Assembly (NCBI GenBank): GCA_963575655.1
Contig: CAUYTY010000239.1
Coordinates: 1 to 64,000 of the forward strand
Source of the DNA: Gammaproteobacteria bacterium
GTDB taxonomy: Bacteria > Pseudomonadota > Gammaproteobacteria > CAIRSR01
Length of the DNA stretch: 64,000 bases
Direction: 5' to 3'
The notes beneath the pieces are model-generated. The model worked only from the letters and a program-made list of their open reading frames with translations, was not told the DNA's origin and did no database searches. Positions within the stretch are counted from its first letter, which is position 1, and each line of letters opens with the position of its first letter. Shown here one piece after another: positions 6,678-36,204 of the stretch. A program made the translations under genes and the position numbers.

Positions 6678-7753
6678 GGCTGGACTCCCTGCTCATCATC
6701 CCGTGTTTGTTCTTCCAACAACTGTTGCTCACGCACCAACTCGGCGCGTAGCGCCTCTTCGCTCGGCAGGATGAATTTGTATTTGGCGGCGAATAGCTGT
6801 TCGTTTCCATGAAGGACGGAGTAGCGGACAACCGATTTATCTTTTTGGGCACAGAGGATAATTCCAACGGTGGGATTGTCGTCGGGGCCGCGCCGTAGAT
6901 CGTCATACATGCGGACATACATATCCATTTGGCCAATATCTTGGTGGGTGAGTTCCCCTGTTTTAAGATCAAAAAGGACAAAACATTTCAGCAGATAGTT
7001 ATAAAAAACCATGTCGATATAGAAATCCTTGGATTCCGTGCTAATACGCTGTTGACGTGCGACAAAGGCAAAACCTTTCCCGAGTTCGAGGAGAAAGGAC
7101 TGGAGATTGCCGATCAGCGCGTCTTCGAGTTTTGATTCGAGGAGTTTTCCCGTATTGGGTAGACCGAGGAATTCCAACATCACCGGATCGTGGATAAAAT
7201 CTCGGGGTGTGAGCGCCATCGCACCAATTTGCGCGGCGGCCGCCTCTCGAACCGGCTGACGATCTTGGCTGGCCAAAAGGCATTCGTAGTATAACGTGTT
7301 GATTTGCCGATCCAGCGCACGAGTGTTCCAGTTCTGATTGGCGGCCTCGTTCATGTACCAGAGACGGGCTTCGGTATCCTCGACCCTAAGCAGGGAGCGA
7401 TAGTGGGTCCAGCTCAATTCGGAACGCAATGCGTTCCAATTCGGGAACACCATATAAAACGCTCGCATATGCCTCAAGTTCCGCTCGTCGAAGCCTTTGC
7501 CAAACTCAGCCGTGAGACCTTCGGCGAGGTCCGCGATCAGACGTTTTCCATAAGCGGCCCTGGTGGCTCCACCTTGCTCGAATTCGACGATATGCCGCCC
7601 TACGTTCCAGCAGGTGCGGACCTGCACGACATCCACCGTGCGCAGGGCTTGTTGGCGGGCGGTCTGGATAACTTCGCGGAGACTGGCAAGTAGACCGCTG
7701 ATTTCATGCGTTGGTACGGTGGCGGAAGCCGCCAGGTTATTGATGGTGCTCAT
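6674..7753 (-). CDS. YhcG/DUF1016 PDDEXK nuclease-domain protein
   Basis: 359 residues with the two-part layout of the YhcG family: an N-terminal helical domain (DUF1016_N, roughly 20-170) and a C-terminal PD-(D/E)xK nuclease fold. Likely catalytic residues are Asp247 (FYIDMVFYN) and Asp262/Lys264 (LFDLKTG). It overlaps hsdM upstream and hsdS downstream, 4 bp each, so it is translated as part of the restriction operon. The family often sits inside type I loci, but its exact task (accessory nuclease, Holliday-junction-resolvase-like activity, or control) is not settled; calling it an accessory defence nuclease is inference. Confidence 0.9.
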   Translation of the reverse strand: MSTINNLAASATVPTHEISGLLASLREVIQTARQQALRTVDVVQVRTCWNVGRHIVEFEQGGATRAAYGKRLIADLAEGLTAEFGKGFDERNLRHMRAFYMVFPNWNALRSELSWTHYRSLLRVEDTEARLWYMNEAANQNWNTRALDRQINTLYYECLLASQDRQPVREAAAAQIGAMALTPRDFIHDPVMLEFLGLPNTGKLLESKLEDALIGNLQSFLLELGKGFAFVARQQRISTESKDFYIDMVFYNYLLKCFVLFDLKTGELTHQDIGQMDMYVRMYDDLRRGPDDNPTVGIILCAQKDKSVVRYSVLHGNEQLFAAKYKFILPSEEALRAELVREQQLLEEQTRDDEQGVQP

Positions 7754-10089
7754 AAAGTTTGCGGCATGGTGCCTTTCGTAATTTCGCCCAGCAACCCTTC
7801 CGTTTCCTGCTCTAGTGCGAGGATATCGGCGCTGATCTCGGCGAGGGTGCGGAGCTGGGGCGGCTGGTAGAAGTGGCGGGTGAAGCTGATTTCGTAGCCG
7901 ATCTTGGTGTCGGCCTCGACGAACCAGGCATCGGGCGTATAGGGCAGGACTTCGCGGCGGAGAAAGGCTTCGATACCGCCGTCTTCGAGCAATGGGATTT
8001 GCTCAGAATCACGCAATTCGCTATCAGGCTCGTATTCAACGACGCAGATCTTGTCGTTGATCTTCACCTCGAATAGGCCGCGCAATGGATCGGACTGGAT
8101 CTTTCCGGACTTGTGGATCTTCTTGATAACGCGAGGAGCATCCTCCACGCGCCAACTGACGGCATTGATGATAAGTTTCAAATCAGCGGCGGTGGACTTT
8201 AGGCCGAGATTTTTGAGCGTTGCCTCGACCTGCTCAAGAAAAACGTTGTGGTCTTCTATAGGACCATTGCCGAGGGCTGCTTGGAGCTTGGTGGCGGCCT
8301 CGATGAGCTGGGCGTCGCGTTTCCAGGTCGCTTCGTTGAGCAGCTTCTTTTTCTTCTTGTCGGAAAGGCTCTTGCGCGGCGTCTCGGCTTCGCCTTCCTC
8401 GTCCTCCTCGTCGCTATCGCTTTTTCCCCAGTCGTTGACGAGTTGCTCCAGTTTTTCGCGGACAGCGGCGGGTTGCTCAAAGAGCGCGTCGCCGAGTTGG
8501 TCGTAGAGCGCAGCGCGGATGTCTTCGTCGCCAGAGGCGTAGCGTAAGGTTTCAATGCGCTGTCGGGTAAGCTGACTATGAAGGCGGAGTGGCCGCTCCA
8601 CCTTCACTTTCCAATAACCGAAGGCGGCATTGGGAAAGATTTTCGACTGTGGCGTCTCCTCGAACTTCAGAAAGGTGTCACAGATACGCTGAATGTCCTC
8701 AGCGGCGAGTTCACAGTTCTTTTTGCCCATGTTCTTGCGCAGTGGCTTGAACCATTGGGTAGCATCGATAAGCTGGACCTTTCCTTGGCGGTGCGCGGGC
8801 TTGCGGTTGGTCAGCACCCAGATGTAGGTGGCGATGCCGGTGTTGTAGAACAGGTTTAGGGGCAGGGCGACGATGGCCTCCAACCAGTCGTTCTCGATGA
8901 TCCAACGGCGGATGTTGCTCTCGCCCTGTCCGGCGTCGCCGGTGAAGAGGGACGAGCCGTTGTGGACCTCGGCGATGCGGCTGCCGAGTGGGGTATTGTG
9001 TTTCATCTTGCTCAACAGGTTGGCCAAAAAGAGCATCTGGCCGTCGCTGCTGCGAGTGATGAGGGAGTATTCGGCATCGCCGTCGTGTTGGATGACGAAG
9101 CGCGGGTCCTTGAGGTCTTTCTTGCCGCCCATGCGCTCCAGGTCGTTTTTCCAGCTTTTGCCATAGGGTGGATTGGCAAGCATGAAATCGAACTCACGGG
9201 AGCGGAAGGCGTCATTGGCGAGGGTGCTGTGCTCCGGGCCACCAACGATGTTATCCGCCGCGTCGCCATCGCCTTTGAGCAGTAGGTCGGCCTTGCAGAT
9301 GGCGTAGGTCTCGCCGTTGATTTCCTGGCCGTACAGGTGCGTGGCGACCTGCTTGCCGTGGTCTTTGGCGATCTTTTGGAGCGTCTCTTCGGCGACGGTC
9401 AACATGCCGCCGGTGCCGCAGGCGCAATCGTAGAGTAGGTAGGTGCCACTCTCGATCTTGTCGGCCACGGGCAGGAACATCAGATTCGCCATGAGCCGCA
9501 CGGCATCGCGAGGCGTCCAGTGCTCACCGGCCTCTTCGTTGTTGTCCTCGTTAAAGCGGCGGATAAGTTCCTCGAATAGCGTGCCCATCGAGTGGTTATC
9601 AAGGCCAGGCATTTCGCCAACGGCGTATGGGCTGATGTTGATGTCCTTATCAAGGAACTTTTCGATGAGCATTCCGAGCGCGTCGGCCTTCGAGAGGCGC
9701 GGGATCTGGTTGCGAAACTCGAAGTTGGTCAGGATGTCCTGCACGTTCGGCGAGAAGCCGTCGAGATAGACTTCGAAGTCGTCCTTGAGTTTCTGTTGAG
9801 TGGAACGGGCCTTGAGGTCGCGTAGCAGAAAGGGCGAGGTGTTGTAGAACGCTTGGCCAGAGGCGGCGCGGAGGGCGTTATCCTGATGGGTGATCCGTTC
9901 CTTATCGAGCGCGGCCTTCATTTCGAGGACGACCTTCTTGGTCGGTTCCAGCACCGCATCGAGACGGCGGAGAATGGTCATCGGCAGGATAACATCGCGG
10001 TATTTGCCGCGCACGTAGACATCGCGCAGAACATCGTCGGCGATGTTCCAGATGAAGTTGGTGAGCCAATTGAGTTGTGCTTGGTCCAT
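7750..10089 (-). CDS. hsdM: Type I restriction-modification DNA methyltransferase
   Basis: An N6-adenine methyltransferase subunit of 779 residues. It has the N-terminal HsdM helical domain (about 5-150), the SAM-binding motif DCACGTGGML (221-230) and the catalytic NPPY (306-309). At 779 residues it is longer than the usual ~500; the extra C-terminal third contains an acidic low-complexity stretch (SDEEDEEGEAE) and a lysine-rich segment and may be a further specificity or regulatory domain. It is first in the operon; the ribosome site is weak. The promoter should lie in 10090-10260, just before a palindromic element. Confidence 0.96.
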   Translation of the reverse strand: MDQAQLNWLTNFIWNIADDVLRDVYVRGKYRDVILPMTILRRLDAVLEPTKKVVLEMKAALDKERITHQDNALRAASGQAFYNTSPFLLRDLKARSTQQKLKDDFEVYLDGFSPNVQDILTNFEFRNQIPRLSKADALGMLIEKFLDKDINISPYAVGEMPGLDNHSMGTLFEELIRRFNEDNNEEAGEHWTPRDAVRLMANLMFLPVADKIESGTYLLYDCACGTGGMLTVAEETLQKIAKDHGKQVATHLYGQEINGETYAICKADLLLKGDGDAADNIVGGPEHSTLANDAFRSREFDFMLANPPYGKSWKNDLERMGGKKDLKDPRFVIQHDGDAEYSLITRSSDGQMLFLANLLSKMKHNTPLGSRIAEVHNGSSLFTGDAGQGESNIRRWIIENDWLEAIVALPLNLFYNTGIATYIWVLTNRKPAHRQGKVQLIDATQWFKPLRKNMGKKNCELAAEDIQRICDTFLKFEETPQSKIFPNAAFGYWKVKVERPLRLHSQLTRQRIETLRYASGDEDIRAALYDQLGDALFEQPAAVREKLEQLVNDWGKSDSDEEDEEGEAETPRKSLSDKKKKKLLNEATWKRDAQLIEAATKLQAALGNGPIEDHNVFLEQVEATLKNLGLKSTAADLKLIINAVSWRVEDAPRVIKKIHKSGKIQSDPLRGLFEVKINDKICVVEYEPDSELRDSEQIPLLEDGGIEAFLRREVLPYTPDAWFVEADTKIGYEISFTRHFYQPPQLRTLAEISADILALEQETEGLLGEITKGTMPQTL

Positions 10090-10448: not shown

Positions 10449-10787
10449 TTAATATCCACCCTTGGTCTTGGTCTCGGGTAGTCCTGCGATCTTCGGGGCC
10501 TGCTTGGCCGGACCTAGGGGGAATAGGGCGTAGACATCCTTGGTATCCAGCTTCTCTCCCCAAATATCCTCCAGGCCCTTGAGCATCTTGCGCATGTTGG
10601 GCTGTTCGCCATTGTGGTTGATATACAAGTCGCGAAGGTAATTCATTACGTCCCAATGGCGCTGGGTCAGGGTAATCCCATCCTGTTCCGCCAGTGCGGT
10701 AGCTACCTGCTCATTCCAATCATCGATATTGGCGAGATAGCCGTTTTTGCTGAGTTCGATCACTGCACCACCTACTTCAAGCGACAT
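10449..10787 (-). CDS. DsrC/TusE-family protein without cysteines (RspA-like)
   Basis: 112 residues that align along their whole length with the DsrC at 17438-17773 (NGYLANIDDWNE, LTQRHWDVMNYLRDLY, LFPLGPAKQAPKIAGLP). Both redox cysteines of DsrC are gone: Pro98 stands where the penultimate Cys would be, the C-terminus ends GGY, and there is no cysteine at all. It therefore cannot carry sulfur. Such DsrC relatives have been called RspA, with a proposed regulatory role. The start at 10787 (MSLEVGG) is chosen because AGAGGAAA lies just upstream; an upstream frame would add 15 residues. Confidence 0.85.
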   Translation of the reverse strand: MSLEVGGAVIELSKNGYLANIDDWNEQVATALAEQDGITLTQRHWDVMNYLRDLYINHNGEQPNMRKMLKGLEDIWGEKLDTKDVYALFPLGPAKQAPKIAGLPETKTKGGY

Positions 10788-10958: not shown

Positions 10959-11126
10959 TAGACATTATCGGAAACCCAAAACCTCACCCCCGCCCCCCTC
11001 TCCTTAACAGGAGAGGGGGAGAATTATTCCGTTGTTATGCTTAACTCCTGAACGGAACAGGCAAAAAATCTCCCACTCTCCTGTTAAGGAGAGGGGGTTG
11101 GGGGGTGAGGTTTCCGATAATGTCTA
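10959..11126. mobile_element. MITE-like element, copy 2
   Basis: A 168 bp copy of the 484-658 element in the same orientation. The terminal inverted repeat TAGACATTATCGGAAAC (10959-10975) has its complement at 11110-11126. The interior is nearly the same (GAATTATTCCGTTGTTATGC is shared), including the paired CTCTCCT..AGGAGAG hairpins. The rest of the gap 10833-11253 holds no gene; TTTGGCCAGGCACT at 11225-11238 repeats 1228-1241. Confidence 0.8.
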
Positions 11127-11253: not shown

Positions 11254-11997
11254 CTATCTACTCATTCCATTAATTCCTGTTGAAACAATGGATTTATGAG
11301 GGACAAACAACCCACAACCCAGCGTTCGTCGTGGTCCGAGCCCTCGTCGCTGGAGTTCCAGTGCGTCTTCTGGGCGTAGCTCTGCTACCAGTAGGCTACG
11401 GGTGGTGCATGGTCCCTCGGGGGTCGTTAGAACCCCGGACTTCCCCGCCAACATCTTTTTGAACCGTACCGCCATCGCGCCGAGTTCCTGCGCGGCATTG
11501 GCGAGAAATATCCCCTCGTCAGCCGTGGGGCCGGTCACGACGTGGCGGGCGTAGAGCGCTGGGTGGTAGTTCAGCGGGCGTTTCACCGCTGTTCCCACGA
11601 CCAACGGATTACCTGCCACTTCCAAGGTTCGCCCCGTTAGGGACGATTGGGCATCGGCGATCCGGTGGTGGGGGAGACGCAAGACCAGGCGCACGCGCCG
11701 CGTTAAATACAGGGTGTCTTCCCTCCCCTCCGGGCGGTACCAGCCATTCCCTGATTCCCCGCCGTGGATGAGGTGCAATCCGGCCTGCGGTTCGTTCAGC
11801 CACCAGGGCAACGCCCCTTGGATAGCCTGAGACAAGGCCCAGGCATGGTCCAGAGGTAGGCTGCGGCAGGTGATGGCAAAGGCCAGATCCATCACGTCTC
11901 CAACAACCGGAATCGCCGGGACATCTTCCTGCCAGTACAGATTGTTCTGTCCACTAGAACCCACATCAGTTGTGTTGCTCATCCGTTTATGATTCAC
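11254..11997 (-). CDS. cas6: Orphan Cas6/Cmx6-family CRISPR RNA endoribonuclease
   Basis: About 247 residues. From DLAFAITCRSLPLDHAWALS (37-56) to the C-terminal glycine-rich loop GLGPRRTLGCGLFVP (219-233) it follows the pattern of the type I-MYXAN Cas6 (Cmx6) family, which cuts CRISPR repeat RNA. His51, His75 and His78 are candidates for general acid/base; this is inference. The start is a GTG, or the ATG at 11982 (MSNTTDV). It lies 6 bp after the helical-repeat-like gene, in a three-gene operon. No repeat array, no other cas gene and no adaptation genes are in the window, so its RNA substrate is unknown. Confidence 0.8.
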   Translation of the reverse strand: MNHKRMSNTTDVGSSGQNNLYWQEDVPAIPVVGDVMDLAFAITCRSLPLDHAWALSQAIQGALPWWLNEPQAGLHLIHGGESGNGWYRPEGREDTLYLTRRVRLVLRLPHHRIADAQSSLTGRTLEVAGNPLVVGTAVKRPLNYHPALYARHVVTGPTADEGIFLANAAQELGAMAVRFKKMLAGKSGVLTTPEGPCTTRSLLVAELRPEDALELQRRGLGPRRTLGCGLFVPHKSIVSTGINGMSR

Positions 11998-12003
11998 TCA
12001 CTA

Positions 12004-12714
12004 TCAATCATTTACAGGTAATTTGCGACGCAGGGCGTCGCGGTCGATCCACCAATCACCCTGTACTAGATTATCCACGGCCTCCGCCAGGCGCGGTAGG
12101 AAGCGGGCGGGCTCGTCCAATTCATTGCCAATCATCCACGCATCAAACTCGTCTTGCGTCTGTACGCCTCGATGGCGTCCGGCAACGAGTGCGAGTTGTA
12201 CCTGGGTGTAGTCGAGCAGATGTCTCCCCTCGTCACTATCTTCGACCCGCAATCCCGCTACGTAGTGGGATACCGCTGCGGCGATCGGGGGTACGTTCGA
12301 CTCTGGTGGAGTTTCTTCAATCAGATGCTGGAGGGTTACCACTGTCCAGGAGGCGGCGATTGGGTAGGTAACTGCCAGCCAGATCCCCTGACCGAGGGCA
12401 GCCATGGAACCGGGTTGGTTGGTACGAAACAGGATATCGCACGCCCGTACCACCTCTTCCCAGCGTTGGGCTGCAGCAAAGATAGTGAACGCCTCCCTGG
12501 CCTGGTCCCAGGCCTCTCGGTCCTGGTCTAGATCGGCGAGGCAATCCGCCAATTCCAAGAGGATCGTGGCGCGTGCTTCCGGGGAGTGGTCCGTAGGGAG
12601 GTTGGCCAGGCGTTCCCTCCATCGGTGTTGTTCCCGCTGTAGGTCGTCGACTGCGCCCTCTCGGTTGTCGCTAGCGTCCAGATCGACCAACGCATAGGGA
12701 TTGGCTTGCCTCAT
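12004..12714 (-). CDS. Helical-repeat (TPR-like) protein of the Cas6 operon, function unknown
   Basis: 236 residues, almost wholly predicted alpha-helical. The segment from about 35 to 130 (ARATILLELADCLADLDQDREAWDQAREAF, then AAQRWEEVVRACDILF) has the alternating small/large pattern of tetratricopeptide-like helix pairs; the rest is acidic and tryptophan-containing near the end (GDWWIDRDAL). I do not recognise a named family. It starts 12 bp after the small upstream gene and ends 6 bp before cas6, so the three are surely co-transcribed. A scaffold or RNA-protein partner for Cas6 is a guess from position only. Confidence 0.7.
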   Translation of the reverse strand: MRQANPYALVDLDASDNREGAVDDLQREQHRWRERLANLPTDHSPEARATILLELADCLADLDQDREAWDQAREAFTIFAAAQRWEEVVRACDILFRTNQPGSMAALGQGIWLAVTYPIAASWTVVTLQHLIEETPPESNVPPIAAAVSHYVAGLRVEDSDEGRHLLDYTQVQLALVAGRHRGVQTQDEFDAWMIGNELDEPARFLPRLAEAVDNLVQGDWWIDRDALRRKLPVND

Positions 12715-12726
12715 GGGGTCTGTTTC

Positions 12727-12906
12727 TCAGGTGAAGGCCGCTTCGAGACGGTCTTCCCAGTTTTCCGGGGTGTCGGGAAACGACGGTCGGACATCCATAC
12801 GAAAGAATCGTTCCCCCTGATGTGCCCGCTCTTGAATAAGGGGGATAATCTCATAGAAGGAACTTATTTCGTGGTATTGCAGCAGTATGTCACTCAAATA
12901 CAGCAT
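12727..12906 (-). CDS. Small 59-residue protein, first gene of the Cas6 operon
   Basis: The start at 12906 (MLYLSDILLQYHEI) is preceded by GGAG at 6 bases. An open frame runs further upstream to 13017 but has no ribosome site. The sequence is helix-rich at first (ISSFYEIIPLIQERAHQ) and ends in an acidic, proline-containing tail (PSFPDTPENWEDRLEAAF). There are no cysteines and no membrane segment. The tight spacing to the next two genes and the clear ribosome site argue that it is real. No family recognised. Confidence 0.55.
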   Translation of the reverse strand: MLYLSDILLQYHEISSFYEIIPLIQERAHQGERFFRMDVRPSFPDTPENWEDRLEAAFT

Positions 12907-13017
12907 GGAGCACTCCGGCGTGATTCGTAACACCCTCACCCTACTAGGAAGGTCGGTGGAGGAGGGGGATGCAAAGAGATTTCGGAACCTGATTATTATT
13001 TTGCTCAACCTTACCAT

Positions 13018-13634
13018 GCACTCCCTGTTTAAAAGGTCTTTCCTGCCTTAGATCACGGCAAAGGTGTAAGGTTGGTGTCGAAATGACGACAATGGTCACT
13101 TTTTACTCTCGCCTGAACACTTCCATCGATGGGTTTATCGTTATGGATTGGTCGCGTATCGGCAACGGGTTAATTTTCCCCAAGTTTGGCGTACAGATCC
13201 AGGGGGGGGCGTCTGCTACAGAATCAGGGATATCCAAACGATCTGGAAGGTGGACACTTTACTCGATTCTTTTGTAAGATGTCTTACATCTTGTTGCCAA
13301 TCGAATGCTTAGAGGATGCACAGGGCATCGTTTGAGTGAATATCCTGGTTGGAGTATGCGTCCCTTGGTATTGCTCCCCCGATGGATATGTGGCGACCTA
13401 GCGGACGGCTCACTACACTGGCCCCAGCCTTTTGGCACCTTATTGATTTTTCTCTCGTAATACCACGGATAATGAGAATTTCCGACCTCCGTCGTGTGGA
13501 TTGCGGATTTCTGTTTGTGGATTTCTTACCTGAGACTGCCAGTCGGATATGCGCCGAAATGATTGGGCGTTGGCTTACATAAGATTAATTTTTTATATTT
13601 TGAGAATCCCTTCACGTAAGGAGTAAAGATCGCC
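13018..13634. promoter_or_regulatory. Divergent control region between the Cas6 operon and dsrA
   Basis: A 617 bp gene-free stretch between the two divergent operons; frames inside it look accidental. It must hold the dsr promoter. The one clear site is a palindrome TGTAAGATGTCTTACA at 13273-13288 (7 bp arms, 2 bp centre), a plausible regulator-binding site about 350 bp before dsrA. A ribosome site AAGGAGT precedes the GTG start of dsrA. No confident -35/-10 pair could be fixed by eye. Confidence 0.4.
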
Positions 13635-14861
13635 GTGGCTAAACAGATGCATAACACCCCAATGCTCGATCAACTCGAGAGTGGGCCGTGGCCAAGCTTC
13701 ATTACTGGACTCAAGCGTTTGGCCCAAGACAACGATATGATGGTGGATCTCTTGGGGCAGCTTGAGCACTCCTATGAGACCCGCAAAGGTTTCTGGAAGG
13801 GTGGCACGGTTGGCGTGTTCGGTTACGGTGGGGGGATTATCCCGCGCTTCTCCGAGGTGGCCAGCAAGTTTCCCGAATCCGCTGAGTTTCACACCCTACG
13901 CATTCAGCCTCCGGCAGGAATGCATTACACCACCGATATCCTGCGCCAGATGTGCGACGTTTGGCAGAAGCATGGTTCGGGCCTGGTGGCATTTCATGGT
14001 CAGAGCGGCGATATCATGTTCCAAGGAATTCGCACGGACAAGGTACAGGCCGCCTTCGACGAATTCAATGAGATGGGGTTTGACCTGGGTGGTGCCGGTC
14101 CGGCGGTACGCACCAGTATGTCGTGCGTTGGTCATGCGCGTTGCGAGCAATCCTGCTACGACACCGCACGGACTCACCGTGAGATCGTCAATACCTTCCT
14201 GGACGATATGCATCGTCCGGCGTTGCCTTATAAGTTCAAATTTAAGTTCTCGGGCTGCCCCAATGACTGCATGAATTCGGTGCAGCGTGCGGATATGGCC
14301 GTGATCGGTACTTGGCGTGACGATATAGCGGTGGATCAGAAAGAGGTCCAGGCCTTTGTCGCCAACCGGGGCCGTCAGTACGTGGTGGATAATGTCCTCA
14401 CCCGTTGCCCGACCAAGTGCCTAAGCCTCAATAACGATGATACCCTTGCCGTTGACAATCGCAATTGCGTGCGCTGCATGCATTGCATTAACGTCATGAC
14501 CAAGGCCCTCAAGCCTGGTAAGGATCGTGGGGTCACCATCCTGATTGGCGGGAAGCGTACCCTCAAGATCGGTGACCTGTTTGGTACCGTGGTGGTGCCT
14601 TTCATGAAGCTTGATTCCGAAGAAGATATGGAGCGGCTGCGCGAACTCGCACAGAATACCATCGACTTCTTCGCGGAAAACGCCTTGGAGCACGAGCGTA
14701 CCGGTGAGATGATCGATCGCATCGGGCTCGTCAATTTCTTGGAGGGTATCGGCGTCGATGTCGATCCTCACATGATCGCCCATCCCCGCGTTAGTTCCTA
14801 TGTGCGCATGGACGGCTGGGACGAAGAAGCGGCCAAATGGAATGAGCGGAAGGCTGGTTAA
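13635..14861 (+). CDS. dsrA: Reverse-type dissimilatory sulfite reductase, alpha subunit
   Basis: 408 residues. In sulfur oxidisers, cytoplasmic DsrA2B2 oxidises DsrC-bound sulfane sulfur to sulfite. The siroheme/[4Fe-4S] cysteines are visible as Cys164 and Cys170 (SCVGHARC) and Cys208 and Cys212 (SGCPNDC). The inserted ferredoxin domain has CPTKC (258-262) and CVRCMHC (278-284). The start is GTG with AAGGAGT upstream. It opens a cluster in the Allochromatium vinosum order, with DsrEFH and DsrL, which marks the oxidative direction. Confidence 0.98.
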   Translation: MAKQMHNTPMLDQLESGPWPSFITGLKRLAQDNDMMVDLLGQLEHSYETRKGFWKGGTVGVFGYGGGIIPRFSEVASKFPESAEFHTLRIQPPAGMHYTTDILRQMCDVWQKHGSGLVAFHGQSGDIMFQGIRTDKVQAAFDEFNEMGFDLGGAGPAVRTSMSCVGHARCEQSCYDTARTHREIVNTFLDDMHRPALPYKFKFKFSGCPNDCMNSVQRADMAVIGTWRDDIAVDQKEVQAFVANRGRQYVVDNVLTRCPTKCLSLNNDDTLAVDNRNCVRCMHCINVMTKALKPGKDRGVTILIGGKRTLKIGDLFGTVVVPFMKLDSEEDMERLRELAQNTIDFFAENALEHERTGEMIDRIGLVNFLEGIGVDVDPHMIAHPRVSSYVRMDGWDEEAAKWNERKAG

Positions 14862-14917
14862 GCGCGTTGTGACCATTTTCGCTTGTACATTCCGTTGCGC
14901 TGGTTTTCGGAGACAGA

Positions 14918-14935
14918 GGATGAATTGTTTCATCC
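14918..14935 (+). terminator. Hairpin in the dsrA-dsrB spacer
   Basis: GGATGAA (14918-14924) pairs with TTCATCC (14929-14935) around a 4-base loop. There is no U-tract, so it is more likely an RNA processing or stabilising hairpin after dsrA than a full terminator. The dsrA-dsrB gap is 227 bp, wide for an operon whose products form a 1:1 complex. Confidence 0.4.
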
Positions 14936-14988
14936 GTGACGATTCTTCTTCTGTCTGTGAAGTCTAGTAGTGCGGAAAGGGAGTGATA

Positions 14989-15114
14989 ATGGTTACCATA
15001 GGCTGGTGGTTGTCGTGGGGAGGTCTGCGTGAGCAGGCCTTTGATTGGGGCAGAAAAGTTTTAATACACCCGAAATTTGGAGGTTACAATGGCCGAAATG
15101 CGTCCACCTATTGA
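14989..15114 (+). CDS. Possible 41-residue leader peptide before dsrB
   Basis: An ATG at 14989 has GGGAG 5 bases upstream and opens a 41-codon frame that ends inside dsrB in another frame. The product is tryptophan-rich (MVTIGWWLSWGGLREQAFDW...). The overlap with the dsrB start at 15089 would allow translational coupling. It could be a leader peptide or chance; there is no homology that I recognise. Confidence 0.3.
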   Translation: MVTIGWWLSWGGLREQAFDWGRKVLIHPKFGGYNGRNASTY

Positions 15115-16159
15115 GAGTGGCGTACCGGACCCCTTCCAGTATATGCATCCGGTATTGCGCCGGAACTATGGTCAGTGGAAGTGGCATGACCGCCCTCGTC
15201 CGGGGGTGTTGCACCATGTGGCGGAGAGTGGTGAAGAGGTTTGGACGGTACGTGCCGGTACCCAGCGCCAGATGGACCTCTACACCGTTCGTAAGTTGTG
15301 CGACATTGGTGATCAGTACGGTGAAGGCTACGTCCGCTTCACCATTCGCAGTAACATTGAATATTTGTTGGCGGATCAAAGTAAGGTTGCTCCGCTCATT
15401 GAGAAATTGCAGGCGGAAGGCTTCCCAGTAGGTGGTACGGGTAATTCGATCACCATGATCGCTCATACCCAGGGGTGGCTGCATTGCGATATTCCGGGCA
15501 CCGATGCCTCGGGCGTGGTCAAGGCCCTGATGGATGAGTTCCACGAGGAATTTATCCGCGAGGAGATGCCGAATCGCGTTCATATTACGACCTCGTGCTG
15601 TCAGATCAATTGCGGTGGTCAGGGCGATATCGCAATTAATGTTCAGCACACCAAGCCGCCCAAGATCAATCATGATCTGGTCTCCAATGTGTGTGAGCGC
15701 CCCACCGTCGTGGCCCGTTGCCCAGTAGCGGCGATTCGTCCGGCGATGGTGAATGGTAAGCCTTCACTCGAAGTAGACGAGAAGAAGTGTATCTGCTGCG
15801 GTGCCTGTTATCCGCCTTGCCCCCCCATGCAGATCAACGATCCAGAGCATTCCAAGCTGTCCATCTGGGTCGGTGGTAAGAATTCTAACGCCCGTGGTAA
15901 GCCCCAATTCCATAAGTTGGTGGCAGCAGGTCTGCCCAATAATCCTCCACGTTGGCCCGAGGTTGCGGCCGTCGTTAAGAAGATTTTGGGCGTCTACAAG
16001 CAGGATGCCAAAGACTGGGAGCGTCTTGCCGATTGGGTGGAGCGGATTGGTTGGTCGCGTTTCTTTGAACTGACTGAACTGCCCTTTACCAAATTCCACA
16101 TCGACAACTGGCGCGGCGCACGTAGCAGTTTGAACGCATCTACCCATATCCGCTTCTGA
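15089..16159 (+). CDS. dsrB: Reverse-type dissimilatory sulfite reductase, beta subunit
   Basis: 356 residues, partner of DsrA. Cofactor cysteines: CCQINC (170-175) with Cys133 upstream, and the ferredoxin-domain block CICCGACYPPC (234-244). The start is the ATG at 15089 (MAEMRPP) because GGAGG lies 5 bases upstream; an in-frame TTG would add four residues. It sits 227 bp after dsrA and 26 bp before dsrE. Confidence 0.98.
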   Translation: MAEMRPPIESGVPDPFQYMHPVLRRNYGQWKWHDRPRPGVLHHVAESGEEVWTVRAGTQRQMDLYTVRKLCDIGDQYGEGYVRFTIRSNIEYLLADQSKVAPLIEKLQAEGFPVGGTGNSITMIAHTQGWLHCDIPGTDASGVVKALMDEFHEEFIREEMPNRVHITTSCCQINCGGQGDIAINVQHTKPPKINHDLVSNVCERPTVVARCPVAAIRPAMVNGKPSLEVDEKKCICCGACYPPCPPMQINDPEHSKLSIWVGGKNSNARGKPQFHKLVAAGLPNNPPRWPEVAAVVKKILGVYKQDAKDWERLADWVERIGWSRFFELTELPFTKFHIDNWRGARSSLNASTHIRF

Positions 16160-16185
16160 GCGGGAGGGTGAAGGAAGAGCAGCAT

Positions 16186-16578
16186 ATGAAGTTCGGTATC
16201 ATGGTGAATGAAGGTCCCTACCAGCACCAGGCCTCTGATACGGCGTATCAGTTCGCCAAAGCGGTGTTGGCCAAGGGGCATGAGATCTACCGCGTGTTTT
16301 TCTATCACGACGGTGTCAACAACGGTACGCGCCTCACCGTCCCTCCCCAGGATGACCGTAATATCGTCAACCGCTGGTCGGAGCTTGGCGCCAAGCACAA
16401 CATTGATATGGTGGTGTGCGTGGCGGCTGCTCAGCGGCGCGGTATCTTGGACGAAAGCGAAGCCAAACGGCATGGCAAAGACGCCCACAACATTGCGGCG
16501 GGCTTCCGGATCTCGGGTCTGGGCCAGCTCGTCGAAGCGGGTATCCAGGCAGATCGCCTAGTCGTATTCGGTGACTGA
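16186..16578 (+). CDS. dsrE: Sulfurtransferase DsrE
   Basis: 130 residues, a TusD homologue. In the DsrE2F2H2 hexamer it accepts persulfide sulfur and hands it to DsrC. The active Cys78 (DMVVCVAAAQRRG) is at the same position as in A. vinosum DsrE. I chose the ATG at 16186 (MKFGIMVNEG), with GAAGGAAGAG upstream. The three-gene set dsrEFH is diagnostic for the oxidative Dsr pathway. Confidence 0.97.
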   Translation: MKFGIMVNEGPYQHQASDTAYQFAKAVLAKGHEIYRVFFYHDGVNNGTRLTVPPQDDRNIVNRWSELGAKHNIDMVVCVAAAQRRGILDESEAKRHGKDAHNIAAGFRISGLGQLVEAGIQADRLVVFGD

Positions 16579-16592
16579 CGGGGAGAATGAAA

Positions 16593-16970
16593 ATGGCGGA
16601 TGCAGGCGGGATCGTCAAGAAGTTTATGTTCGTCAACCGTAAGGCCCCTTACGGTACCATCTACGCCCTGGAGTCCTTGGAGGTGGTGTTGATTAGCGCC
16701 GCCTTCGACCAGGATGTAAGTCTGGCGTTTCTCGATGACGGTGTTTATGAACTGACCAAAGGCCAGAACACTAAGGGCATAGAGATGAAAGGCTTCTCCT
16801 CGACCTATCGGGCGCTGGAAGGCTATGACATCGAAAAGCTGTATGTAGCCCGGGAGTCATTGGAGGAGCGTGGCCTCTCCGAGGATGACCTGGTGGTCGA
16901 TGTGCAGGTTGTCAGCCGTGCCGAGATGGCAGACCTGATGGCCGAGCAGGATGTGGTCTTGAGTTTCTGA
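16593..16970 (+). CDS. dsrF: DsrF subunit of the DsrEFH sulfurtransferase
   Basis: 125 residues, a TusC homologue. The N-terminal KFMFVNRKAPYGTIYALESL and the FLDDGVYEL segment are typical. DsrF lacks the catalytic cysteine of DsrE and is structural within the hexamer. Two ATGs compete: 16587 and 16593; GGGGAG ends only one base before the first but 7 bases before the second, so 16593 (MADAGG) is preferred. It lies 14 bp after dsrE. Confidence 0.96.
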   Translation: MADAGGIVKKFMFVNRKAPYGTIYALESLEVVLISAAFDQDVSLAFLDDGVYELTKGQNTKGIEMKGFSSTYRALEGYDIEKLYVARESLEERGLSEDDLVVDVQVVSRAEMADLMAEQDVVLSF

Positions 16971-16980
16971 GGAAATTGCG

Positions 16981-17280
16981 ATGCTGCATACGGTCAACAA
17001 ATCGCCGTTCGAGCGCAACACCCTGAAAAGCTGTTTGGCCCATGCCAAACCCGGCGATGCGGTTTTGCTTATCGAAGACGGTGTCTATGCCGCTTTGGCG
17101 GATACTACGACCTCGGCCTTGGTCCAAGAGGCCATGACGCAGGTATCCGTTTACACCCTCGCTCCCGATTTGGAAGCCCGTGGTGTGGCGAAGCGGGTTA
17201 TCGATGGAATTAAGCTCATCGACTATGCGGGGTTTGTCGACCTGGTGGTCGAGCATCCCGCTACCCAGTCTTGGCTGTAA
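16981..17280 (+). CDS. dsrH: DsrH subunit of the DsrEFH sulfurtransferase
   Basis: 99 residues, a TusB homologue. The conserved cysteine is Cys18 (LKSCLAHAKPGDAVLLIEDGVY); the equivalent in A. vinosum is one of the two cysteines of the hexamer and is not essential for sulfur transfer from DsrE. It lies 10 bp after dsrF. The gene is followed by a 157 bp spacer with a long hairpin before dsrC. Confidence 0.96.
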   Translation: MLHTVNKSPFERNTLKSCLAHAKPGDAVLLIEDGVYAALADTTTSALVQEAMTQVSVYTLAPDLEARGVAKRVIDGIKLIDYAGFVDLVVEHPATQSWL

Positions 17281-17313
17281 GTCAGTTCAGCCTCCTTACC
17301 AAAATGGCTCATC

Positions 17314-17382
17314 CTCGGGAGATAAATGAGATACTGGCGTGCCTGATCGGCACTGTCGCCACGGTCTCGCTTGTCTCCCGAG
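17314..17382 (+). promoter_or_regulatory. Long-range RNA hairpin upstream of dsrC
   Basis: CTCGGGAGA (17314-17322) is complementary to TCTCCCGAG (17374-17382), a 9 bp stem closing a 51 base loop that itself contains GATCGGC/GTCGCC-type pairing. It may stabilise or process the dsrC message; dsrC is known in A. vinosum to have its own promoter and high abundance, which would fit. Mechanism here is inference. Confidence 0.4.
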
Positions 17383-17437
17383 ATGCGCATAACCCAGCCT
17401 ACGTGTATCCCAACCCTCCTTGGAGCTAAAGAAAACC

Positions 17438-17773
17438 ATGGCAACTATCGATGTTAATGGAAAGTCGGTCGAAGTGGATGAAGAAGGCTATCTCATCAAT
17501 CTGGCCGAGTGGAATGAAGATATCGCGGAACGGTTTGCAGGGGACGACAATACTCAGCTTACCCAAAACCATTGGGAAGTCATCACCTTCCTCCGTGAAT
17601 ATTACAACGATTATCAAATTGCGCCTGCGGTGCGCGTATTGACCAAGGCCATCGGCAAGAAACTGGGGCCAGAGAAGGGCAACAGCAAATATCTCTATGA
17701 GCTGTTCCCTTACGGTCCCGCCAAGCAGGCGTGCCGTTACGCTGGTCTGCCGAAGCCGACTGGCTGTATCTAA
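17438..17773 (+). CDS. dsrC: Sulfur carrier DsrC
   Basis: 111 residues, the soluble carrier that brings persulfide sulfur to DsrAB and whose trisulfide/disulfide forms are handled by DsrMKJOP. The two redox cysteines of a true DsrC are present: Cys99 (KQACRYAGLP) and the penultimate Cys110 (PTGCI). The start at 17438 (MATIDVNGK) has GGAG upstream; an in-frame TTG would add six residues. It is followed by an intrinsic terminator. Compare the cysteine-free paralogue at 10449-10787. Confidence 0.98.
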   Translation: MATIDVNGKSVEVDEEGYLINLAEWNEDIAERFAGDDNTQLTQNHWEVITFLREYYNDYQIAPAVRVLTKAIGKKLGPEKGNSKYLYELFPYGPAKQACRYAGLPKPTGCI

Positions 17774-17780
17774 GGTTGTG

Positions 17781-17809
17781 CGGGGTCTCGAGTTACGGGA
17801 CCCCGTTTT
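17781..17809 (+). terminator. Rho-independent terminator after dsrC
   Basis: CGGGGTC (17781-17787) pairs with GACCCCG (17799-17805), followed directly by TTTT. It lies 8 bases past the dsrC stop and would give a short dsrC-rich transcript while letting part of transcription run into dsrM. Confidence 0.7.
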
Positions 17810-17885
17810 GATGTATTTTCCGTTAGCCTCGCGGCTAATATTTTATGTGGCTATTTGGCCGAGGTCTTTTTAAGGAATACCGAGC

Positions 17886-18614
17886 ATGACTGTGGTGACG
17901 GTGCTGTACGCGCTGCTCTTCTATGCGGCGGCGGCAATCTTGGTGATCGGTGTCCTCCGCCGTATCGTGATCTACGCCCGGGTTCCTGCGCCGTTGCGGA
18001 TTACCACAATGCCGGCACCGCTTTCTCGCGCCGGAGTGGTTCTGCGGATGGTGCGGGAGGTGTTTTTCTTCGAGAGCTTGTTTAAGTCGACCAAATGGAC
18101 GTGGCTATTCGGTTGGCTCTTCCACATCTGTATGGCCGTGGTGTTGTTGCGCCATCTGCGTTATTTCCAGCAACCGGTGTGGTGGGGCGTTGAGTTTATC
18201 CAATTCTTCGGTAAGTATGCTGCCTTCGGTATGGTGGCGGGTCTCGGCGGCTTGCTGGCACGGCGGCTGTATGTAGATCGCGTACGCTATATCTCGGCAC
18301 CTTCCGACCATCTCATGTTGATCCTATTGCTGGCTATTGCGCTCTCCGGGCTGACGATGACCTTTGTGGTCCACACCGATATCGTGGCACTGAAGGCCTT
18401 CTTCTTGGGATTGATGCGTTTTGCCTGGCAACCTTTGCCGCCGGATCCGATCTTACTGCTGCATCTGACCCTGGTGATTACCTTGATGGTCATCTTCCCC
18501 ATCTCTAAGCTATTGCATGTCCCCGGGATTTTCTTTAGTCCTACCCGTAATCAGGTGGACGATGCCCGTGAGCGGCGGCATGTAGCGGCATGGGCGCGGG
18601 ATGATGCTGCCTAA
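17886..18614 (+). CDS. dsrM: DsrM, cytochrome b subunit of the DsrMKJOP complex
   Basis: 242 residues with about five membrane helices, of the NarI-like b-type cytochrome kind. Histidine-bearing helices (LFHICMAVVLLRHLRYF; LTMTFVVHTDIV; LLHLTLVITLMVIFPISKLLH) would hold haems b. It passes electrons between the quinone pool and DsrK. TAAGGAATA precedes the ATG. It lies 112 bp downstream of dsrC with a terminator between them. Confidence 0.96.
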   Translation: MTVVTVLYALLFYAAAAILVIGVLRRIVIYARVPAPLRITTMPAPLSRAGVVLRMVREVFFFESLFKSTKWTWLFGWLFHICMAVVLLRHLRYFQQPVWWGVEFIQFFGKYAAFGMVAGLGGLLARRLYVDRVRYISAPSDHLMLILLLAIALSGLTMTFVVHTDIVALKAFFLGLMRFAWQPLPPDPILLLHLTLVITLMVIFPISKLLHVPGIFFSPTRNQVDDARERRHVAAWARDDAA

Positions 18615-18650
18615 TCTTAAAGATACGACTCAAAATTATTGACTAAGGTG

Positions 18651-18669
18651 GACCAGAAAGTTTCTGGTC
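18651..18669 (+). promoter_or_regulatory. Perfect palindrome in the dsrM-dsrK spacer
   Basis: GACCAGAAAGTTTCTGGTC, 9 bp arms around one base, in a 153 bp spacer. A second hairpin CCAGGA(18728)..TCCTGG(18744) lies just before dsrK. They are probably mRNA processing or stabilising hairpins rather than terminators, since no U-tract follows. Confidence 0.4.
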
Positions 18670-18767
18670 GTGACCGGGGTGGGCTTTAGTTTATCCTTTG
18701 GTCTTAGACGTTAGACGAGTAGTAGGGCCAGGACAATCTCCTGGTGTGGGCTTAGTGGAGGAATCGC

Positions 18768-20267
18768 GTGGCAGCTTTTGATGTTCCGGTGTTGGGTGAC
18801 TATCCGATTTGCCCGGTACCTGCGATTAAACCGGATACGATGAAGAGCGTTAAGCCCTTCGTCGTTAATAACCCCATGCACAACACCGACCTTGGTTTCC
18901 CAGGGGCCTTGGTGGATAACTGGCAGGAGGTTGCTATCGCCAAGATTGGCGACCTTCTGGGGAAATATCGCTCGTTCCAAGTGTTCTTGGATTCCTGCGT
19001 GAAGTGCGGTTCGTGTACCGACAAGTGCCATTATTTCCTCGGCACCGCAGATCCACGTAACATGCCAGTAGCGCGTCAAGATCTGCTTCGTCAGGTATAC
19101 CGCCGTTACTTTACCTTCGCAGGGAAGTATTTCCCGGCGTTGGTGGGTGCGAAGGATCTGACGCGGGAGGTTTTGGACGACTGGTATAGCTATTACCACC
19201 AGTGTTCCCAGTGTCGGCGTTGTTCTGTCTATTGTCCCTACGGTATTGATACCGCTGAGATCTCGATGGCTGCTCGCGAGATCATGGATTCCGTGGGGCT
19301 TGGCCAGAAATATACCAACGAGATTTTGGGTAAGAACATCAAAATTGGTAATAATCTGGGCCTCCCGCCTGCGGCCATTCGTAATACCTTGGAGGGACTC
19401 GAGGAGGATGTGGTCGATGCGACCGGTGTGACGGTACGTTACCCCCTGGATGAAAAAGGGGCTGAGGTATTACTGGTCACCCCGTCGGCGGATTTCTTCG
19501 CTGAACCGCATGTTGATGGCCTAATTGGCTATGGCAAGGTGTTCCATCAAGCGGGAATTTCCTGGACTCTCTCCTCTAAAGCCTCCGAGGCGGCCAATTT
19601 CGCCATGTTCATTGGCTCTTACGCCAATATGAAGAAGGCGGCCATGCGTATTCGTGAGGCGGCCCTGGAGCTTGGCGTTAAGCGTATTGTCGTGGGTGAG
19701 TGTGGACATGCGTGGCGCGTGGCTTATAGCTTCTGGAATACTCTGATTGGCCCGTTCGATTTTCTTGACCCCAAGTATCCGGTACCACAACATATCTGTG
19801 AGTTTACCCATGATTTGATCCAGCGTGGGGCATTGAATCTGGATAAGTCGGCCAATGATCATCGCATTGTTACCTTCCATGATTCCTGTAATGTGGCGCG
19901 TGCCTCGCGTATGGGTAATATGCCGGGCGGGCAGTACATTATTCCGCGGGAGGTGATCAAGGCAACCTGTAATCACTTCGTGGATATGCATCCCTATACT
20001 ATTCATGACCAGACTTACTGTTGCGGTGGTGGCGGTGGTCTGCTTACCGACGACCTGATGGAGGTACGTGTAAAGGGTGCCTATCCGCGCATGCAGGCCC
20101 TGCGTCAGGTAACGGAGGGACACGGTGTCAATTATCTTGCCGCGATCTGCGCCATCTGTAAGAGCCAGTTCACTAAGGTGTTGCCGTATTACAAGTTCGA
20201 CCGGGACATGATCGGGGGTATACATCAACTGGTCAGTGCGGCTATTCAACTTGGGACGAAAGAATGA
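18768..20267 (+). CDS. dsrK: DsrK, heterodisulfide-reductase-like catalytic subunit
   Basis: 499 residues, related to HdrD. Two [4Fe-4S] ferredoxin motifs are visible (CVKCGSCTDKC and CSQCRRCSVYC), then the CCG-type domains (GECGHAW.. and YCCGGGGGLL) that bind the special catalytic cluster thought to act on the DsrC trisulfide. It is cytoplasmic and anchored by DsrM. The start is GTG with GGAGGAA upstream. Confidence 0.97.
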   Translation: MAAFDVPVLGDYPICPVPAIKPDTMKSVKPFVVNNPMHNTDLGFPGALVDNWQEVAIAKIGDLLGKYRSFQVFLDSCVKCGSCTDKCHYFLGTADPRNMPVARQDLLRQVYRRYFTFAGKYFPALVGAKDLTREVLDDWYSYYHQCSQCRRCSVYCPYGIDTAEISMAAREIMDSVGLGQKYTNEILGKNIKIGNNLGLPPAAIRNTLEGLEEDVVDATGVTVRYPLDEKGAEVLLVTPSADFFAEPHVDGLIGYGKVFHQAGISWTLSSKASEAANFAMFIGSYANMKKAAMRIREAALELGVKRIVVGECGHAWRVAYSFWNTLIGPFDFLDPKYPVPQHICEFTHDLIQRGALNLDKSANDHRIVTFHDSCNVARASRMGNMPGGQYIIPREVIKATCNHFVDMHPYTIHDQTYCCGGGGGLLTDDLMEVRVKGAYPRMQALRQVTEGHGVNYLAAICAICKSQFTKVLPYYKFDRDMIGGIHQLVSAAIQLGTKE

Positions 20268-35707: not shown

Positions 35708-35834
35708 GAATGATTTCTCCGGGTAGCGTCGGCAACGCGATTATTCTCAAAGATATAGGGTGATATTTTTGGTAAATTTTTCCGTATCGGAAAGTGATTT
35801 TTCTCCTATCTTACTTAGGAAGTAATGTCAACTA

Positions 35835-36204
35835 CCCCGCCCTAAAGGGCGAGGCTTGTGAAAGCGAGTCTTGAAGTTGACCAGCTCCGTCGCTTTGCGA
35901 CGAGACCTTATCGTGGAATCCGCGCAAGCGGTGCAATAGGCACTCCGGGATGCTTCCTCAGTTCCGGACACTGCGGTCAGTGGTTAAACAGGCATACGGG
36001 GTCGAAGCCAGTGCTGCTGCCAAGGATGGACCCGAAAGGGTACAAAAACCCACGAATAAGCGAGCGAGGGGAGCCACACCGCAAGGTGTGCGTCACTAGG
36101 CCCTTACGGGCTGACAGCCGGGAAAGACCGGCAACTTTAAAGATTTTGCTATCCAACGGGGCGGAAAAAACCGTCCCCTTTCCTCCCCGCCCTGAAGGGC
36201 GAGG
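35835..36204. mobile_element. Structured ~370 bp element with IS200/IS605-like hairpin ends
   Basis: CCCCGCCCTAAAGGGCGAGG (35835-35854) and CCCCGCCCTGAAGGGCGAGG (36185-36204) are near-identical hairpins placed as direct repeats 350 bp apart. The interior is rich in small stems (GTCGCTTTGCGAC; CACCGCAAGGTGTG; GCCCTTACGGGC; GCCGGGAAAGACCGGC) and has no gene. This is how a tnpB-less relic of an IS200/IS605-type element, possibly with its omega RNA part, would look. It lies directly before the helicase start at 36221. Family call is inference. Confidence 0.5.

Follow-up and report, generated by a model that had tools for sequence, protein, structure and literature searches.

A Cas6-family gene cluster at the dsr locus of Gammaproteobacteria and its possible role in host RNA metabolism

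What does a Cas6-family protein do at a locus that possesses no CRISPR array and adjoins a dsr operon? The question arises from a 64,000-nucleotide stretch of DNA, here called the window (GCA_963575655.1, contig CAUYTY010000239.1, positions 1–64,000), from a Gammaproteobacteria bacterium (CAIRSR01). A first-pass annotation of the window had described an orphan operon comprising a Cmx6-type Cas6 and two unrecognised partners, and had proposed that the Cas6 might act on a host RNA or serve a remote array. The three minus-strand open reading frames are indeed present, with gaps of 6 bp between cas6 and the gene for a 236-aa protein and 12 bp between the latter and the gene for a 59-aa protein. 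The features relevant to this study are as follows.

11254–11997, minus strand: Cas6-family protein (PF09559/TIGR02807) of the dsr-linked clade, with an invariant His51
12004–12714, minus strand: 236-aa all-helical TPR-like protein, single copy, almost confined to genomes with the Cas6-like gene
12727–12906, minus strand: 59-aa protein with the conserved tail F-x-x-D-V-K-P-P-F-x-D-T-P-x-N-W-E-D-x-L-E-x-A-F
10449–10787, minus strand: DsrC-like protein (PF04358) lacking C-terminal cysteines and ending KQAPKIAGLPETKTKGGY; downstream member of the cluster
12907–13634, no strand: divergent intergenic region between the 59-aa gene and dsrA
13635–20267, plus strand: start of the dsr operon (dsrA, dsrB, dsrE, dsrF, dsrH, dsrC, dsrM, dsrK), given as context
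14862–15076, plus strand: dsrA–dsrB intergenic region, often containing a strong stem-loop in relatives; candidate RNA target
17774–17885, plus strand: dsrC–dsrM intergenic region, often containing a strong stem-loop in relatives; candidate RNA target

The assignment of the Cas6-like protein as Cmx6-type was borne out by matches to PF09559 (E=6e-58) and to TIGR02807 (cas6_cmx6; 112.4 bits against a cut-off of 98.85). Its gene is listed with a GTG start, and the true start is possibly farther downstream. Neither the 236-aa nor the 59-aa protein has an accepted family in Pfam, NCBIfam or PADLOC, in agreement with the initial description of both as unrecognised. No CRISPR array was found at the window locus, as had been noted, nor at the first 13 relatives examined, and a search of Rfam returned no known RNA at the cas6 locus. 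Between cas6 and the DsrC-like gene lies a REP-like palindromic repeat (10959–11126), the arms of which are 88% complementary over 42 nt. Elsewhere in the window, Rfam identified a HEARO RNA (RF02033, 111 bits; 35827–36079), a type of RNA paired with IscB; no IscB-like ORF directly adjoins it, and it sits at a helicase gene that is seemingly split by an IS. Two matches to C4 antisense RNA (RF01695; 41070–41149 and 42407–42488) suggest phage-derived DNA.

A conserved gene cluster divergent from dsrA

The same genes were found in the same order beside dsrA in the first relatives searched, and the 59aa-236aa-cas6 block recurs in unrelated families far beyond chance; the partners are thus conserved beside cas6 in other genomes, and no CRISPR locus, of type I or otherwise, adjoins it in relatives. 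The conserved order is [TauD-like oxygenase]-59aa-[236aa]-cas6-[DsrC-like protein without C-terminal cysteines], divergent from dsrA, which starts at position 13635 in the window. A total of 102 cas6 loci, including one CRISPR-linked cyanobacterial control, were surveyed for these genes. The 59-aa gene, the product of which has a strongly conserved tail among relatives, was present in 86 of them, and a TauD/TfdA-like 2-oxoglutarate oxygenase gene (PF02668) in 73; in most relatives the latter lies between the 59-aa gene and dsrA, and it is absent at the window locus. The 236-aa gene is the least constant member, being located inside the cluster in 41 of the 102 loci, while many other genomes encode it away from the cluster. 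Among the 100 loci with enough downstream sequence, 78 contain a DsrC-like gene 3' of cas6. The initial description of a three-gene unit overlooked that the 236-aa gene is its most variable member and that the DsrC-like and TauD-like genes also belong. The neighbours of cas6 are these cluster genes and the dsr genes, with no other cas genes.

In the window, the DsrC-like protein matched PF04358 with E=1.5e-31 and has a tail without Cys. The same holds for most cas6-adjacent copies, 74 of 78 of which have no C-terminal Cys. By contrast, of the 73 other dsrC genes in the surveyed loci, mostly those of the dsr operon, 70 encode both C-terminal Cys residues. Judged by this tail, the cysteine-less protein would be unable to carry sulfur and may be a sensor or mimic. 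In some relatives a methionine-R-sulfoxide reductase (SelR/MsrB) gene was observed just past the DsrC-like gene (L024, 2027–2425; L026, 11363–11782), and downstream of the cas6/DsrC-like pair, Burkholderiales-like loci encode a double-domain TusA-like protein or a rhodanese (L188, 2017–2490, and L189, 1440–2291, in dsrA-forward orientation).

A profile of the 236-aa protein detected it in 94 genomes, nearly always as a single copy, and in 92 of these genomes the Cas6-like gene is present as well (p=7e-60). Of the other two, G125 has a fragment next to dsrA where the contig ends, and G286 is a genome of 72% completeness. The association with the Cas6-like gene thus holds even for unlinked copies of the 236-aa gene. 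No further gene was common to the neighbourhoods of the unlinked copies, and a plasmid search returned no relative. AlphaFold predicted an all-helical repeat (pLDDT 93) for which the best PDB matches were TPR-like, none with E below 0.001.

In oxidative dsr loci outside the Gammaproteobacteria (L176, L177 and L178), TauD-like and 59-aa genes lie divergent from dsrA without Cas6 and adjoin a siroheme synthase (CysG-like) gene. This arrangement suggests that the TauD-like and 59-aa genes are the older core, to which Cas6 was added later, and it fits enzyme maturation as well as it fits RNA, such that the cluster may have a role in protein maturation. Under such an interpretation, the Cas6 fold would have lost its nuclease function and the protein would act as a protein- or RNA-binding scaffold in Dsr maturation, where it would work alongside the TauD-like oxygenase and the cysteine-less DsrC in the handling of siroheme, DsrAB or DsrC. 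Besides the Cas6-less loci at which the TauD-like and 59-aa genes accompany dsrA and the siroheme synthase gene, the rhodanese or TusA-like genes 3' of the DsrC-like gene in Burkholderiales-like loci and the TPR-like nature of the 236-aa protein, as is common in protein-protein scaffolds, speak for it. What speaks against it is the retention of His51 in 101 of 101 sequences and of the C-terminal glycines in no fewer than 97, features that would be superfluous in a pure scaffold. We regard this reading as a serious possibility, albeit one that is probably not correct.

Co-inheritance with dsr and not with CRISPR

PF09559, true dsrA and Cas1 were scored in 369 Gammaproteobacteria genomes. PF09559 was present in 118 and true dsrA in 119, with 111 genomes carrying both (odds ratio 482, Fisher p=7e-75). 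The surveyed genomes share ancestry and the p-values consequently overstate the evidence; despite this kinship, the conclusion that the Cas6-like gene follows dsr and not CRISPR is safe, because it draws on many families and on physical linkage. When cas6 and dsrA were located on one contig, 81 of 83 pairs were divergent and 0.66–4.5 kb apart. All seven carriers without dsrA (G070, G096, G129, G188, G300, G318 and G319) are draft assemblies; in each of them cas6 is accompanied by one or more further cluster genes, and several of these loci end at a contig edge. Three genomes (G271, G285 and G136) contain neither the Cas6-like gene nor dsrA while members of their families have both, and this co-absence likewise indicates that the gene follows dsr. 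A phylum-wide sample of 47 further dsrA genomes was additionally searched for Cas6. In all four from Gammaproteobacteria, PF09559 was encoded just upstream of dsrA in divergent orientation, and in the 43 others, all non-gammaproteobacterial dsr genomes, it was absent. The initial description of the operon as an orphan missed that cas6 is a dsr-locus gene of Gammaproteobacteria.

No association with Cas1 was detected, Cas1 being present in 51 of the 118 carriers versus 85 of the 251 non-carriers (p=0.08), and 67 carriers lack it. In 16 Cas1-free carriers, several of which are complete genomes, no RAMP effector was found. These results bear on the possibility that the protein is an ordinary Cas6 that processes pre-crRNA from arrays encoded elsewhere, as the TIGR02807 match above cut-off and the presence of arrays in the genome of the window might indicate. 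Such arrays were sought in the stretches of the assembly that were retrieved, and they were located only on contigs other than that of the cas6-236aa-59aa locus. These contigs hold a type III locus that encodes Cas10, RAMP and a Cas6 belonging to a different family (PF10040), another locus with RAMP and PF10040, an I-F locus (Csy3, Cas1 and array), and a further Cas1 with an array (L034 on C221, L035 on C250, L036 on C192 and L037 on C199). The type III machinery of this genome is thus supplied with a distinct Cas6 by its own locus and can do without the dsr-linked protein. Together with the high proportion of carriers without Cas1, the lack of RAMP effectors in the Cas1-free carriers and the tracking of dsrA, this makes service to a remote array exceedingly improbable. 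Remote CRISPR service was rejected on the lack of Cas1 association and of RAMP genes, and a host RNA is the better reading of the two originally offered.

PF09559 always occurred as one copy per carrier genome, even at a genome size of 1.0–1.1 Mb. This is also difficult to reconcile with an anti-phage defence or toxin-antitoxin module that sits at the dsr locus by chance, given that defence genes are patchy and multi-copy and the present gene is single-copy and strictly dsr-linked across many families; moreover, the partners have no PADLOC family. Such a module would account for the RNase fold, the small partner protein and the type I restriction-like modification gene that adjoins the cluster at 7750–10089 (recognised from sequence only), and yet we consider it very unlikely.

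Fold, conserved residues and candidate RNA targets

The predicted structure of the Cas6-like protein (pLDDT 87.8) displayed a double ferredoxin-like fold, and its PDB matches were almost all Cas6, the best being 8fcu_B, the Cas6 of a type I-B CAST (TM 0.72, E=1e-16), followed by archaeal Cas6 and Cse3. Among 101 sequences, His51, Trp22, Gly85, Trp86, Arg101, Arg107 and Gly229 are invariant, and G219, G221 and G229 of the C-terminal G-rich loop are each kept in at least 97. The catalytic histidine of Cas6 enzymes sits in the N-terminal region. Since His51 occupies the same region, it is likely to be that residue; a His is also present at this position in six of the eight CRISPR-linked Cmx6 sequences compared. 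Of the four Burkholderiales-like copies, one carries Tyr instead, which counts against RNA cleavage. Trp22, the insert with Trp86, Arg101, Glu161, Gly185 and Lys235 distinguish most members of the dsr group from the CRISPR group. A scan of genome contigs yielded only one distant relative, and CRISPR-linked Cas6 sequences from cyanobacteria, found in the plasmid search, were used as the outgroup for a tree in which dsr-linked and CRISPR-linked sequences are split by a long branch (support 0.995).

A candidate RNA target was sought in the gaps of the dsr region. Fold scores in gammaproteobacterial dsr loci revealed that two gaps are unusually structured (mean z −2.3 for dsrA–dsrB and −3.0 for dsrC–dsrM, against −0.6 to −1.0 elsewhere), with little structure in the divergent leader, in dsrB-E and dsrM-K, upstream of dsrC, or between cas6 and the DsrC-like gene. 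Strong stem-loops, with near-perfect stems of about 8–15 bp, were found in 39 of 67 dsrA–dsrB and 48 of 63 dsrC–dsrM gaps; they are GC-rich (in the window, L024, L107, L112, L117, L118 and others) and seldom followed by a T-run. These observations are what would be expected if the Cas6-like protein processed the polycistronic dsr mRNA at the two stem-loops and thereby set the relative amounts of the Dsr proteins, which would be one specific form of the explanation that we favour below. However, pairing is kept while the stem sequence changes completely within genera, which is not typical of Cas6 sites; dsr loci without Cas6 contain similar stem-loops, and many carriers have none. The stem-loops may therefore be ordinary mRNA hairpins, and a stabilising or attenuating function would explain them. 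They were demoted as the specific target on account of the sequence drift and of their presence without Cas6; hairpins in dsr mRNA are weak candidate targets of the Cas6-like protein, and the search yielded no specific one. We consider this specific form improbable.

A proposed role and comparison with known systems

We consider it somewhat probable that a Cas6-family endoribonuclease left CRISPR and was fixed in Gammaproteobacteria as an accessory to the oxidative dsr pathway, with a role in host RNA. This proposal draws directly on the linkage to dsrA, the single-copy co-inheritance, the lack of association with Cas1, the composition of the cluster, the Cas6 fold, His51 with the G-rich loop, and the separate clade. 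Given this lack of a CRISPR link, the protein probably cuts or binds the cell's own RNA for sulfur metabolism. We infer that the exapted Cas6 would still bind, and probably cleave, a structured host RNA, most likely one transcribed from the dsr region or belonging in some other way to the sulfur-oxidation programme. In that case the 236-aa protein, being TPR-like, could be a scaffold or adaptor and the 59-aa protein a small subunit, while the cysteine-less DsrC-like protein might be a DsrC mimic that carries no sulfur and acts as a sensor or adaptor, such that RNA processing would track the sulfur or redox state. A bolder and distinctly tentative version holds that a Cas6 recruited permanently from CRISPR may run a metabolic RNA switch which cleaves host RNA according to sulfur or redox state and thereby governs dissimilatory sulfur oxidation in the majority of Gammaproteobacteria with dsr genes; its components would be the helical scaffold, the 59-residue subunit, the 2-oxoglutarate oxygenase and the DsrC mimic unable to carry sulfur.

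If this is true, a Cas6 would have a place in core metabolism without any CRISPR. CRISPR surveys are affected too, since gammaproteobacterial matches to PF09559/TIGR02807 frequently carry a mistaken CRISPR annotation. The dsr pathway, which is central to sulfur cycling in oceans, sediments and symbionts, gains a conserved cluster of genes that had been overlooked; RNA-level control of sulfur oxidation becomes testable, and the function of the cluster can be tested by deletion.

We know of no system with a TauD-like/59aa/236aa/Cas6/DsrC-like composition. In the literature searched, no link between Cas6 and the dsr locus was found and neither PF09559 nor TIGR02807 was mentioned; many subscription papers lie outside that search, and an earlier mention is hence possible. 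In the passages searched, neither a 2024 study of Dsr evolution (PMC11406059) nor the Allochromatium vinosum genome paper (PMC3368242) describes the cluster or includes the Cas6-like gene among the dsr genes. Of the CRISPR features tested, homology, fold and putative active site are the only ones present, and the cluster is a CRISPR-independent and dsr-specific Cas6 cluster with the proposed function given above.

Several known systems share parts of it. The dsr accessory genes dsrR, dsrS, dsrL and dsrN are likewise found only in Dsr organisms and encoded at the dsr locus; in contrast, the Cas6 cluster is upstream and divergent, outside dsrABEFHCMKLJOPNRS. TPR and other helical-repeat adaptors (sNASP, kinesin light chain, Rap) have the all-helical repeat fold of the 236-aa protein, which differs from them in having no sequence family, no PDB match below E=0.001, and a distribution restricted to genomes with the Cas6-like gene. 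The DsrC/TusE family without C-terminal cysteines shares PF04358 with the DsrC-like cluster member, and in the Solemya velum symbiont additional DsrC homologues without these cysteines were noted outside the dsr operon (PMC4287430); here, by comparison, 74 of 100 loci specifically pair such a protein with a Cas6-family gene. Closest of all are Cmx6 of type I-MYXAN and the type I-B CAST Cas6 (PDB 8fcj, 8fcu), which have in common with the dsr-linked protein PF09559, the double ferredoxin-like fold (TM 0.72), the C-terminal G-rich loop and, in six of eight CRISPR-linked sequences, the equivalent of His51. The dsr-linked protein differs from them in having neither array nor cas genes, in its independence of Cas1 and its linkage to dsrA, in an identity of about 22–27% that accompanies a separate clade (0.995), and in carrying an extra N-terminal W-x-E, an S-G-N-G-W-x-R-P insert, R101, E161, G185 and K235.
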